Positions 40,474 to 44,560 of a stretch of 44,560 nt of DNA are shown in pieces. Position numbers and translations under genes: made by a program. Positions within the stretch are counted from its first letter, which is position 1, and each line of letters begins with the position of its first letter. Under the pieces are notes generated by a model. That model saw only the letters and a program-made list of their open reading frames with translations, did not search any database and was not told where the DNA came from. This DNA is from Fusibacillus kribbianus (GTDB lineage Bacteria > Bacillota > Clostridia > Lachnospirales > Lachnospiraceae): contig NZ_JASGBQ010000024.1 of the NCBI RefSeq assembly GCF_030053595.1, positions 1 to 44,560 of the forward strand, given 5' to 3'.

Positions 40474-40547
40474 TGTTGTATAAATAAAGTTGACACCTTA
40501 TTCTCAAAGAATTCATGTATAATATAGAGAATAAGGAGGAACTCTCA

Positions 40548-40889
40548 ATGTCGCGTACCCAACGTAAATACGACCACGAATATAAGGTCCAGGCTGTCAA
40601 ACTTGCCAGAGAAATCGGCGGTGCTAAGACAGCCAAAGAATTAGGTATTCCAGAAGGAACCATCCATACATGGCTAAAAGCAGTTAGAGCCGGCACATTG
40701 GATATTGGCAACGGTGCACATACTCCAGAAAGTGCAATGAGCCTCGCTGAGGAACTTGCTATGCTCCGCAAACGCGTCAAGGATCAGGATAAAGAAATCC
40801 GGCGTCTCAAAGAGGAAAATGAATTTCTCGAGGAAGCAAGTGCTTTTTTCGCAGCCAGCCGTCGGAAGTCGGCAAAAACCAAAGAATGA
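40548..40889 (+). CDS. IS3-family transposase OrfA
   Basis: 113 residues: helix-turn-helix DNA-binding domain (KYDHEYKVQAVKLARE, ELGIPEGTIHTWLK) and a C-terminal leucine-zipper-like coiled coil (LAEELAMLRKRVKDQDKEI). AAGGAGG precedes ATG 40548; the in-frame ATG 40515 has none. Its stop overlaps orfB by ATGA. Confidence 0.93.
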   Translation: MSRTQRKYDHEYKVQAVKLAREIGGAKTAKELGIPEGTIHTWLKAVRAGTLDIGNGAHTPESAMSLAEELAMLRKRVKDQDKEIRRLKEENEFLEEASAFFAASRRKSAKTKE

Positions 40890-41794
40890 CGTTCATTGCC
40901 ATAAAAACAGAAGACGGCGCGATTAAGGGAAAACTCTCATTCTATTGCCGGATGCTTGGTGTCAGCCGCCAGGGGTTCTACAAATATCTTGCTAATAAAG
41001 ACCGGCCCTGGAAATATCAGGACCTCGCTGATGCTATAAGAGCAATCCATACGGAGGATGAATACAATGATACCTATGGGCGTATTCGCATGTATCAGGC
41101 ACTTCTCCTTAAGAAACCGGAAGGACTCAAAATTCCTAGTGAGCGAACCGTCTACAGGGTCATGGATGAAATAGGTCTTAGTCATCGACCAAAGCGTAAG
41201 CCGAATGGTATTACCAAAGCTGATCGGGAAGCTCGTAAGTCAGATGATCTTCTGAAGCGAGATTTCAAATCCGATAAGCCACTTGAAAAATGTGTAACTG
41301 ACATCACAGAAATCAAGGCTAAAGATGGAAAACTATATGTTTCAGCTATCTTTGACTGCTTTGATTCCAGTGTCCTTGGCCTGGCAATGGAAACCAACAT
41401 GAAAGCAACTTTGTGTGAGCATACCCTGGATAATGCCTATCTGGCATACCCTGATCTGCGAGGGGCTATTGTACACTCTGACAGAGGAACACAATATACC
41501 AGTGAAGCCTATCGTAAGGCTCTAGCAAAATACGGCATTATTCAAAGCATGAACAGTGCTGGTGGCAGGTGTCACGATAATGCCCGATGCGAAAGCATGT
41601 GGGCCAGAATGAAAAGTGAGCTTCTCTATGACCGCTACAATACGGAAACTGTGACCACAGAGGAACTGAAGGTTCTCATTTGGAGATATTTCATCAGTTA
41701 CTGGAATAACAGGAGGATCTGCTCTGCTAACGGTGGGCTTCCTCCGAGCATCAAGCGCCAGAGATACTATCAATCTTTGGACCTGGCTGCATAG
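40886..41794 (+). CDS. IS3-family transposase OrfB (DDE integrase)
   Basis: 302 residues, retroviral-integrase-like. HTH_21 region (~45-100), then the rve core with catalytic residues in VTDITEIK (D), HSDRGTQYTS (D) and DNARCESMWARMKSE (E). The frame is intact and starts in the ATGA overlap with orfA, so it may be made by reinitiation rather than the fusion frameshift common in the family. The element therefore looks capable of transposition. Confidence 0.95.
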   Translation: MTFIAIKTEDGAIKGKLSFYCRMLGVSRQGFYKYLANKDRPWKYQDLADAIRAIHTEDEYNDTYGRIRMYQALLLKKPEGLKIPSERTVYRVMDEIGLSHRPKRKPNGITKADREARKSDDLLKRDFKSDKPLEKCVTDITEIKAKDGKLYVSAIFDCFDSSVLGLAMETNMKATLCEHTLDNAYLAYPDLRGAIVHSDRGTQYTSEAYRKALAKYGIIQSMNSAGGRCHDNARCESMWARMKSELLYDRYNTETVTTEELKVLIWRYFISYWNNRRICSANGGLPPSIKRQRYYQSLDLAA

Positions 41795-41842
41795 TCAGTG
41801 ATATCTTTGAGACAAATGTGTCAACCAATATTGACAATATCA

Positions 41843-42184
41843 AAAAGAAATCCAAGATGTAATAACATTTGGTGTTGGTTTGAACATGAAACTGGTAAAC
41901 AACTAGCAAAATTATCATGTGAATTTGATTACAAAAAAGGTGAGCCTGTATTTCGTAAATGGTATTTTTATGATTCAGCATTAGAATCTTTTAAAAAAAG
42001 AAATCCGCATATTAATATTAATTCTCTTCCATCTGATTATTTTGATTGTATGATAAGAGCATCATATAGTGACACTGAAATTGGAGATAAAGGAATAATA
42101 ATAACTAAAGAAGAGTTTTATAAATATAAAGAAGAAGTAGAGAAACTAAGAGGAACAGTAGACGGGTCAGTGGCGTTATTATAG
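41843..42184 (+). pseudogene. 5'-truncated hypothetical gene next to the IS
   Basis: The frame is open from inside the IS end to TAA at 42182-42184 and has no good start codon after the IS boundary. About 113 codons lie outside the IS: CWFEHETGKQLAKLSCEFDY, then a charged region and KEEFYKYKEEVEKLRG near the end. Composition is AT-rich, unlike the core genes. I do not recognise the family. A hybrid beginning at GTG 41798 within the IS end could be expressed. Confidence 0.55.
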
Positions 42185-42261
42185 CAGAAAGAGGTGTTAA
42201 ATATGCAAGTAACAGAGTGGTAATATTAAATTTGTGGACTAAGACAACGGGAGGGACAAAA

Positions 42262-43446
42262 ATGGAGAAGAAGCAATGTATTGCATTTTATTCAGATAAG
42301 ATTGTTAAGATTGACATTACGCCATATATAAATCTGTTGCTAAAAATGTATGAAGAAACCGGAATAATAGTTGTCAATGATGCCTTAAAATATGGTGAAG
42401 GCATAATGTATAGTGTTTTAGAAACTTTGACGGATAGAGAGCAAAAAGTTATTAATTTGAGAGTTGGAATTAATAATTTAGAAGAAAAAACTGTTGAAGA
42501 AGTTGCGAGTATTTTAAGCTTAACTTGTGAACAAGTGTCGGAGGTTGAGGCTAAAGCATTTAGAAAATTACGGCATCCTTCACGTTCAAAAAGTCTGACT
42601 GGAAGAAATATGTATAAGATTCTTCTTGAAAAATACGATGACTTTTATTCATCAAGATTATCTGACCTATTGATTGAGGAAATAGTTTCACTTGTTGAAA
42701 ATAGACAGAATCGAAGCTTCTATATAGAAAAAATTATGAAGAGATATGGTGTTTCAATAACTACTAAAGAAGATATTAAAGAAAATATTGATTATGATTT
42801 AGATGAACTAGAATTATCTGTTAGGGCATATAATTGTTTGAAAAGAGCAGGAATTAATACTTTTTCTGAATTGGCGCATATGTCTGATGGCGAATTGAAA
42901 CACGTTAGAAATTTGGGACAGAGATGCTATGATGAAGTTAAACAGAAAATGAAAGAGGTTGCAGGTGTTTCAGAGGATGGATGTAATACAATTGTTTTTT
43001 CTTATAATGGTGATAAGACAGTATACAAATATTTTGACGTAGATACTCAGAAGATTGCAAAATCAATCTATGTTAATTTCGTCAATATGAGACCGGGTGC
43101 AAAAATCATTCTTAATGCGCCTTTATCTCCAGGCTTGCAAGACATTCTTCTTTTGAAAGGGTATTTGTATATCGAAGATGTCTATAGTGATTCGGAACAA
43201 TTGATTAAACAGTTACAGGCATTTGGTTTTGAAGATTTTGCACAAGAAATATGTATTTTTAAAGAAATGCAGGAAAAACCAAATGAGGATGAAAGGGTTT
43301 ATATTTGCCCGATGGATGATGAGGTGCTGGAATTTATACAAAATAAAGAATGTTCTTCTGCAGGTGACTTTATTGAAAAGGCAGAAAGCGTAGAAAATGA
43401 AAAAATAGTTGATTTGGCCAAAAGGTTATTGGATGCATCGATTTAA
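42262..43446 (+). CDS. Sigma-70 region 4 / RNA polymerase alpha-CTD fusion protein
   Basis: 394 residues, AT-rich. Residues ~54-112 match region 4 of primary sigma factors (LTDREQKVINLRVG, VEEVASILSLTCEQVSEVEA, then KAFRKLRHPSRSK almost as in RpoD). Residues ~178-234 match the alpha subunit C-terminal domain (LELSVRAYNCLKRAGINT, VRNLGQRCYDEVK) with Arg188 and Asn191 at the positions of E. coli R265 and N268. The last ~155 residues are unrecognised. In the recognition helix the arginines that read the -35 box in RpoD (R584, R588) are Cys89 and Ser93. It probably binds DNA and/or RNA polymerase as a regulator of the island. GGGAGG precedes ATG 42262. Confidence 0.8.
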   Translation: MEKKQCIAFYSDKIVKIDITPYINLLLKMYEETGIIVVNDALKYGEGIMYSVLETLTDREQKVINLRVGINNLEEKTVEEVASILSLTCEQVSEVEAKAFRKLRHPSRSKSLTGRNMYKILLEKYDDFYSSRLSDLLIEEIVSLVENRQNRSFYIEKIMKRYGVSITTKEDIKENIDYDLDELELSVRAYNCLKRAGINTFSELAHMSDGELKHVRNLGQRCYDEVKQKMKEVAGVSEDGCNTIVFSYNGDKTVYKYFDVDTQKIAKSIYVNFVNMRPGAKIILNAPLSPGLQDILLLKGYLYIEDVYSDSEQLIKQLQAFGFEDFAQEICIFKEMQEKPNEDERVYICPMDDEVLEFIQNKECSSAGDFIEKAESVENEKIVDLAKRLLDASI

Positions 43447-43749
43447 GAATATTATTAAACGTATTATGAAGAGTAAAGTAACAACATAGAAAAGGCAGAG
43501 GATGAAATAATTCAAAGAAAAGGTAATATACGAGTCCGAAAGTTTAGTCTAATTAAGGAAATGGATTTCTAAGAGTTCCAAAATGCTAGTATTTATGCAC
43601 GTTTGAGGGGTGGGTTCAAATGAACCCACCTTTTCCTATTGAAAGGGTTCATCGTTATTTTGTGAGACCGTTTCAAAGTGGACCTGTTGACAAACGATAG
43701 TGTCAATAGTTTTTCGCAAATTTAATTTCTGCCGTTCAGCAGATGGCAG
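43447..43749. other. Non-coding AT-rich gap containing a terminator and an IS end
   Basis: No convincing gene. It holds the terminator at 43609-43634 and, toward the transposase, TTGACA-N8-TGTCAA (43687-43692 and 43701-43706), probably within the terminal region of the IS256-family element. The exact IS boundary cannot be set because its other end is outside the window. Confidence 0.5.
43609..43634 (+). terminator. Terminator downstream of the sigma4/alpha-CTD gene
   Basis: Perfect 9-bp stem GGTGGGTTC (43609-43617) / GAACCCACC (43622-43630), loop AAAT, then TTTT. Confidence 0.88.
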
Positions 43750-44560
43750 TTAACCGGCTATGATATCAGACAGCAGGTCATCCTCTGGTTTGGAAAGGTG
43801 ATCCATATTCATGTAACGTCTGGTTCCCCATTGGGTTCCGGCTACATGGCGCAGTCTGGCACATACGAGCATCAGAGCACTTTGGCCGTCAGGAAAAGCG
43901 CCGATTGCTTTGGTTCGGCGTTTGATCTCTCGATTCAGCCGTTCAATGGTATTATTGGTCCGGATTCTGGTCCAGTGCTGTGTTGGAAAGTCCATGTAGG
44001 TTAGAGTTTCTTCAATGCCATCCTGTAGCTTTTTGGCAGCAGAACTAAGCTTCATTTCCTTCAGTTTTTCAGCAACCTGTCGTGCCTTCTCACGTGCTGC
44101 TTCCTTGCTCTCCTGGGCATGAATGGCCTTTAACATCATGGCTACAGCCTTCATCTTATTACGTGGAGTAACAGAGAAAATGTTCCGGTAAAAATGGACA
44201 GTACAGCGTTGATAATGGGCATCCGGAAATACTTCTGGTATGGTTTCAAGCATTCCGAGATTTTTATCTCCGATGATCAGGCGGACTACAGTTAAGCCTC
44301 GCTCTTTCAGCCATACAAAGAAGGATCGCCAGCTCTCCTTGTCTTCTTTCATCCCTTCAGCTGCACCGATGATTTCACGGCAGCCATCGTTGCTGACTCC
44401 AATGGCAACAAGGATAGAAACATTTTGGATTTCACCACCCCAACTGCGTTTCAGATAGACGCCATCCACATAGACATACGGATAGCTGCCGACCAATGGG
44501 CGTGTACGCCAAGTTTCGATATGCTCATATGCCTTTTTATTGAGGTTGCTGATAGTGCCT
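43750..44560 (-). CDS. IS256-family (mutator) transposase, 5' part beyond window
   Basis: At least 269 residues; the frame is open to the window edge, so the N-terminus is missing. DDE residues are visible: Asp in VYVDGVYLK, Asp in LIIGDKNLGML, and Glu in RTNNTIERLNREIKRRT, which is the IS256 signature. QRCTVHFYRNI (the conserved C/D-x2-H region) is present. No stop or frameshift is seen in the visible part, so it may be functional. Confidence 0.93.
   Translation of the reverse strand, partial: GTISNLNKKAYEHIETWRTRPLVGSYPYVYVDGVYLKRSWGGEIQNVSILVAIGVSNDGCREIIGAAEGMKEDKESWRSFFVWLKERGLTVVRLIIGDKNLGMLETIPEVFPDAHYQRCTVHFYRNIFSVTPRNKMKAVAMMLKAIHAQESKEAAREKARQVAEKLKEMKLSSAAKKLQDGIEETLTYMDFPTQHWTRIRTNNTIERLNREIKRRTKAIGAFPDGQSALMLVCARLRHVAGTQWGTRRYMNMDHLSKPEDDLLSDIIAG

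Follow-up and report, generated by a model that had tools for sequence, protein, structure and literature searches.

Genomic context

The window, by which we mean the whole stretch of DNA analysed here, is an entire contig (C17) of 44,560 bases, and the contig end falls within the right-hand insertion sequence (IS). The features considered here are as follows, with L008 denoting a close relative found in another assembly.

40489..41825, + strand: IS3-type element with orfA (40515-40889) and orfB (40886-41794), inverted repeats GTTGACAC...GTGTCAAC at its ends (Pfam, end reading)
41798..42184, + strand: ORF of 128 aa starting in the IS3 end (ORF list, profile and homology searches)
42249..42255, + strand: GGGAGGG, a likely ribosome-binding site 6 nt 5' of the ATG (direct sequence reading)
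42262..43446, + strand: gene for a 394-aa protein with sigma4 and alpha-CTD (ORF reading, Pfam; dN/dS 0.198 against L008)
42415..42576, + strand: Sigma-70 region 4 (sigma4), residues 52-105 (Pfam PF04545, E 1.8e-11)
42523..42543, + strand: recognition-helix segment TCEQVSE, residues 88-94, with the -35-reading residues replaced (alignment, residue table)
42766..42957, + strand: RNA polymerase alpha-CTD, residues 169-232, DNA-binding residues mostly kept (Pfam PF03118, E 2.1e-24, residue table)
42967..43443, + strand: unrecognised C-terminal module, residues 236-394 (identity with L008, Pfam, own HMM)
43609..43630, + strand: perfect 10-bp hairpin followed by TTTT, a possible but weak terminator of the 394-aa gene (inverted-repeat search)
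43750..44559, - strand: IS256/Mutator-type transposase, cut by the contig end (Pfam)

The 394-aa frame opens with the ATG at 42262 and closes with the stop at 43444-43446. The initial annotation had placed it in an AT-rich, IS-bounded island, and this description stands, with a G+C content of 31%, an IS3-type element on the left and an IS256-type element on the right. The G+C fraction of the gene is 0.316 compared with 0.527 for window positions 1-40480, within which the lowest value of any 1185-nt stretch is 0.407, and its GC3 is 0.25 compared with 0.63 and 0.62 for two upstream genes. Two copies of the IS3 orfB and three of the IS256/Mutator transposase, including that at 43750..44559, are present in the genome. 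By eye, no target duplication was found at the IS3-type element (40489-41825), the outside bases of its two ends being unmatched, and this suggests an adjacent deletion or recombination. The 128-aa ORF (41798-42184) starts inside the IS3 end and found no relatives among the phages, plasmids and L008 genome searched, and it is therefore probably what is left, at the 3' end, of an upstream gene that has been cut. The hairpin at 43609..43630 was not called in a terminator scan, and Rfam returned zero matches over 41000-44560.

Two RNA polymerase-derived modules in one protein

That two RNA polymerase-derived modules occur in one protein, as initially annotated, was borne out by Pfam, with both domains above the curated cut-offs (Sigma70_r4, 43.8 bits against 24.1; RNA_pol_A_CTD, 85.5 bits against 23.8), and a sequence search of the PDB agrees: RpoD region 4 (E 2e-15) and an alpha-CTD chain (E 1.2e-15) were recovered, RpoD/SigA region 4 and alpha-CTD chains being the nearest solved structures by sequence.

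The sigma4 domain has undergone a change at its DNA-reading face that is even larger than the loss of -35-reading arginines first proposed from Cys89 and Ser93. Cys89, Gln91, Ser93 and Glu94 stand where we take R584, R586, R588 and Q589 to lie in E. coli numbering, and L008 is identical at all four positions (C/Q/S/E). In this lineage, consequently, the sigma4 face seems to have lost the ability to read -35 DNA. Elsewhere the domain is well kept in both proteins, which retain E585, K593, R596, K597, R599 and R603; the patch from K593 to R603 is presumably the side facing activators and the alpha-CTD. The suggestion that the segment RKLRHPSRSK faces the polymerase flap was only partly sustained, in that the segment is present but the flap-binding end helix that should follow it is replaced: SKSLTGRNMYKILL is found in the window protein, compared with the RSRRLKDFLD end helix in the genome's own RpoD-like protein. 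An end helix of the RLKDFLD type is absent from the window protein, from L008 and from the six viral members compared. As described in the relevant part of PMC2988021, this end helix in the primary sigma factor contacts the beta-flap, and other residue numbers for -35 reading (R516, R518) are in use in a passage of PMC8321222.

Since region 4 is RpoD-like, one could consider that the protein is a new sigma factor replacing the housekeeping one. Sigma regions 2 and 3 were not found in the window protein by Pfam, so the feature that would define such a factor is missing, and the residues that read the -35 element are lost. Region 2 was absent among the five Pfam families returned up to E 10, and the NCBIfam matches (25 of 49 listed) fall in region 4 or the alpha-CTD only. 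We regard this explanation as extremely improbable; because region 2 was not found and the base-reading residues of sigma4 are lost, the protein is not expected to function as a sigma factor.

The alpha-CTD, by comparison with sigma4, is largely intact. The initial annotation held that the UP-element residues are retained, and we can extend this to R265, N268, C269, G296 and E302, with K298 replaced by Arg and S299 by Cys. The domain still looks capable of binding A+T-rich DNA. The acidic residues at the alpha-CTD 259/261 positions are also retained, as is R603 in sigma4, and we take these to be needed for contact between sigma4 and the alpha-CTD. Contact between the two domains in cis is possible, given that the acidic 259/261 positions are conserved. 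The N-terminal assembly and dimerisation domain of RNA polymerase alpha was not found in the window protein, in which only the CTD matches; the NCBIfam match to TIGR02027 spans positions 225-291 of 298.

A close relative and the C-terminal module

A peptide pattern, suited to detecting close relatives alone, was scanned against 84,980 genomes; it matched 28 times and yielded a single relative, L008, which comes from a Lachnospiraceae metagenome assembly and whose contig begins inside the gene. The two proteins are 78-80% identical over residues 23-394, and the genes are 83% identical at the DNA level with the reading frame open in both genomes. Purifying selection is evident between them, with a dN/dS of 0.198 overall, 0.193 for sigma4, 0.316 for the alpha-CTD and 0.159 for the C-terminus, these figures being a simple estimate from one pair. 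Because dN/dS is low, and lowest in the C-terminus, selection seems to have kept the gene and the C-terminus most strongly; from residue 235 on, 138 of 160 residues are identical. The alpha-CTD hairpin in L008 is disrupted by a 30-nt in-frame insertion and nearby changes, and given this insertion DNA binding by the L008 alpha-CTD may be dispensable.

These observations also bear on whether the gene is simply a mobile-element relic in decay that no longer has a function. Insertion sequences on both sides, a truncated upstream ORF, a contig that ends in an IS and the altered alpha-CTD in L008 are all in keeping with a relic. Against this, both copies of the gene, at 83% DNA identity, have an open frame, dN/dS is low (although for one pair and by a simple estimate) and a likely ribosome-binding site is present, and we consider decay improbable.

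The C-terminus had been described as unrecognised and proved to be so. Pfam placed zero families above cut-off in residues 235-394, a model built from two sequences was of low confidence (pLDDT 56.1) and Foldseek found no matches to it in the PDB at E <= 0.001. A structure model of the whole protein, made without an alignment, reached a pLDDT of 40.6 and was not used. Among the collected loci, our own HMM of the module matched L008 and copies of the window gene and nothing else. In viral contigs, a DNA pattern for the conserved C-terminal stretch gave 0 matches and the C-terminal profile found no relative. Two candidates were rejected: a second, degenerate alpha-CTD, seen by eye at about residues 285-335, received an hhalign probability of 0.4%, and a distant C-terminal match in G121 (E 0.002) was attributed to chance, the long ORF overlapping it reading by eye as alanyl-tRNA synthetase.

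Overlapping genome sets were also searched; in many genomes part of the first-look candidates was scored (e.g. 9 of 19), and absences are thus not strict. The whole protein recovered only its own gene among 195 relatives' genomes (E <= 1e-20) and among 398 genomes from the phylum (E <= 1e-17); the C-terminus likewise recovered only its own gene among 397 genomes from the family, with one chance match besides among 392 from the order. A cut-off of E <= 1e-22 was useless as a filter, as RpoA passes it in 248 of 250 genomes, and only the score order was used; among the matches listed in those 250 genomes besides the gene itself, none was better than 7.5e-31 and none covered both domains. Named plasmids (148 records matching) and phages (39) gave no match with 80% coverage, and the best 20 of each cover a single domain. 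One of these records, L010 (NZ_CP149721.1), is a C. difficile "plasmid" that carries a ribosomal protein/rpoA operon and is probably a mislabelled piece of chromosome; it is the one opened among 12 matching C. difficile plasmid records.

It had further been supposed that the mobile neighbourhood might point to regulation of a defence or mobile system. The mobile setting is supported, since the gene is IS-bounded and shifted in G+C and the 10 listed genomes of the same genus gave no match at E <= 1e-20. Evidence for a defence link is weak because the PADLOC matches (MzaA and PglW) cover only the generic sigma4 and alpha-CTD, and a defence role is left with one loose hint, a partial gajA-like gene lying some 4.7 kb downstream in L008 with other genes in between. 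This gene (L008 5821-6720; PADLOC, Gabija, E 9.7e-75) shares the region downstream of the homologue with a BlaI/BlaR1-like pair and two DUF6033-like proteins, one of them below cut-off. Directly after the homologue, a short frame (L008 1170-1330) resembles by eye the end of a RelE/ParE-type toxin gene.

Related fusions in viral contigs

Profile scans of IMG/VR revealed viral ORFs in which sigma4 and the alpha-CTD are both present. With the alpha-CTD as query, sigma4 lay in the same ORF at 45 of 67 loci (46 with a lenient search), a share that overstates the frequency of fusion because the query alignment comprised four viral fusions and the window protein. The 46 distinct viral fusion sequences form 40 clusters at 90% identity and 37 at 50%. 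Further analysis used a set of 48 sequences, after removal of identical sequences and of five additional copies of the window gene; the later finds G1184 and MT835636 are not in it. As a control, 31 loci with a cellular RpoA-type ORF (L002, L010 and L097-L125) were scanned with the same profiles, and zero ORFs had both domains.

Pfam, applied to 42 of the 48 sequences, recognised both families in all 42 and HTH_3 in 14, and sigma region 2 was not seen in the 42 (25 of 34 Pfam families listed). An HTH is N-terminal in three viral proteins, of Cro/CI type in two that are near-identical and HTH_17 in one, and an HMM of these three N-termini matches 8 distinct contigs, the source three included. 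Upstream of sigma4, 30 of the 46 viral members carry a P-x-N-L box, mostly after Tyr or Trp, compared with 1.5% of shuffles.

The residues of both domains are mostly conserved in the viral members. In sigma4, R586 is found in 46 of 46 and R588, Q589 and R596 in 44 each. R584 is Arg in 30 and Lys in 2 more, and R/K584, E585 and Q589 occur jointly in 28, so that -35 reading is not certain in the viral members either. In the alpha-CTD, R265 and G296 are each found in 46, E302 in 45 and N268 in 44, and the joint set of R265, N268, G296, K/R298 and E302 in 39. The 259/261 positions (columns labelled 'E' and 'E259?' in the residue table) are acidic in 36 and 35 of the 46.

The viral neighbourhoods were examined in 40 loci, for which 155 ORFs were listed, 120 of them on the same strand and 96 of those scanned. 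Among the 96, PHROG families (25 of 141 listed) for helicase matched 5, DNA methyltransferases 4 each (with some ORFs in common) and DNA polymerase 2, helicase and methyltransferases being the most frequent; these are small numbers. A fused helicase and DNA methyltransferase of 840 aa (L012 4899-7421) lies directly upstream of a viral sigma4-alphaCTD gene. The class extends beyond IMG/VR, with another member (G1184; box YPLNL) in a single further genome out of 331 from the taxonomic class, where a replication-initiation-like gene lies 6.6 kb away, and a diverged member in the human-gut phage record MT835636.

Alpha-CTDs with other partners also occur in viral contigs. Several short viral frames (L136, L164, L180, L187, of 69-98 aa, and others) are barely more than an alpha-CTD, and at the start of L182 two alpha-CTD-like units appear by eye in tandem.

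Origin of the fusion

The window protein and the viral members share the order of sigma4 then alpha-CTD within one ORF, and the linker of 67 residues in the window protein compares with 23-88 across the 48 sequences. The window protein may descend from the viral class. The two domains, however, give different signals. For the window alpha-CTD the viral-fusion profile gives 81.3 bits and the RpoA profile 73.1, whereas for its sigma4 a profile built from 38 sigma-factor ORFs, most of them viral, gives 85.4 bits and the viral-fusion profile 55.2, bit scores across different profiles being only roughly comparable. The trees, which rest on domains of about 60 residues and are weak, disagree in the same way as the profile scores.

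Given that the window sigma4 is nearer to sigma factors and retains a longer RpoD-type loop, the fusion in this lineage may have arisen separately from the viral ones. In its full form, this explanation would have an RpoD-type sigma4, an alpha-CTD and a new C-terminal domain joined independently in the mobile DNA of this bacterial group, in convergence with the phage proteins. The sigma4 tree, in which the window protein and L008 join six viral ORFs that have sigma4 only (support 0.83), favours it alongside the sigma4 scores and loop, while the slightly greater nearness of the alpha-CTD to the viral fusions (the tree being weak), the identical domain order and a linker length within the viral range speak against it. 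On balance we find an independent fusion somewhat unlikely.

Proposed function

Our best explanation, held tentatively, is that the window protein is a transcription regulator that has moved horizontally, belongs as a diverged member to the phage-type sigma4-alphaCTD class and carries a C-terminal module of its own. Sigma4 and an alpha-CTD in one chain would make a ready-made promoter reader, covering the -35 element and the proximal UP element independently of the polymerase core. The viral members, with DNA faces that are mostly intact and in some cases an N-terminal HTH, would bind promoter DNA and block or re-aim the host polymerase, to the advantage of phage promoters. For the window lineage, a protein-contacting role of sigma4 through the kept K593-R603 patch is more likely, and the alpha-CTD would sit on A+T-rich DNA. 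A signal, through sensing, or a partner would probably come from the conserved C-terminal module. The sequences themselves show the two domains, the changed residues, the recurrence of the pairing in viral contigs and purifying selection; DNA binding, polymerase contact, repression or redirection, and a role for the C-terminus are what we infer from them. The original suggestion of a factor joining or redirecting polymerase and altering its promoter choice agrees with both this anatomy and the viral relatives.

An alternative use of the same protein contacts would be as a polymerase-binding inhibitor, which blocks holoenzyme or activator function without reading promoters and in which the C-terminus is the trigger or effector. 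Both known members have lost the DNA-reading residues of sigma4 and one has also lost the alpha-CTD hairpin, AKAFRKLRHPSR is identical between the window protein and L008, and the C-terminus is the most conserved part, all of which would suit an inhibitor. The window alpha-CTD nevertheless retains nearly all of its DNA-binding residues, and the flap-binding end helix is absent; we consider an inhibitor unlikely.

Returning to the phage-type regulator, the recurrent pairing of sigma4 with an alpha-CTD points to a type of transcription control protein that has gone largely unnoticed. We would propose more broadly, and with greater reserve, that a varied and unnamed class of promoter-recognition mimics is encoded by uncultured phages and by some mobile elements of bacteria. 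Each would be one protein, with sigma4 and alpha-CTD in cis, a new PxNL box and, in some, an HTH, and would capture promoters by copying the polymerase's two upstream DNA readers. The window protein would be an offshoot of this class whose sigma4 reader has become a surface for protein contacts and which has gained a new C-terminal control module. Were this correct, a single small phage protein would reproduce the upstream half of promoter recognition, giving phages a new route to the take-over of host transcription and experimenters a simple system for studying the mutual contact of sigma4 and the alpha-CTD on DNA. The viral set, with its 37 clusters at 50% identity, offers diversity for structure prediction and bench work, and the window protein is a natural case in which the DNA-reading face of sigma4 is gone and the rest kept.

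Comparison with known systems

The closest counterparts in organisation are the 46 unnamed viral fusions from IMG/VR, which have the same order of sigma4, linker and alpha-CTD with a linker in the same range. These mostly keep their DNA-reading residues, including the invariant R586 that is Gln in the window protein. At the position of the PxNL box the window protein has PYINLL, without the exact box, an HTH was not recognised at its N-terminus, and 160 residues follow its alpha-CTD compared with 0-42 in the viral members. Among cellular proteins, RpoD/SigA shares region 4 with its RpoD-type loop and RKLRHPSR, and differs in that the window protein lacks regions 1-3 and has changed recognition residues and end helix. 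RpoA shares the equivalents of R265, N268, G296 and E302, and differs by the N-terminal assembly domain, which was not found in the window protein.

Two defence proteins share single domains with it. MzaA, of the MZA anti-phage system, is matched by region 4 at positions 601-666 of a 683-position profile, and membership was rejected on this segment, the only one matched, at 62.0 bits against an NCBIfam cut-off of 800. PglW of type 2 BREX has an alpha-CTD-like domain (PADLOC match; PMC12839542, in the part concerned), and membership was again rejected, PglW being a large kinase to which only the generic domain matches and no other match was seen.

No single family covering both sigma4 and the alpha-CTD was found among the matches listed, in PHROGs, Pfam, NCBIfam or PADLOC, and no paper on a sigma4-alphaCTD fusion in the open-licence PMC literature. 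Among cultured phages, the 'RNA polymerase subunit alpha' of Bacillus phage Goe8 (QDP42789.1) ends in an alpha-CTD, and sigma4 was not found in it; the protein (L193 1959-2591, MN043729.1) has 210 aa and an N-terminus that by eye is like that of L150. Sigma appropriation by AsiA and MotA of phage T4 is a phage route that alters the action of region 4 at the promoter, as set out in part of PMC2988021, and the window protein resembles it by analogy only. Standing outside every family tested, a sigma4-alphaCTD protein would work like the phage factors that take over transcription.
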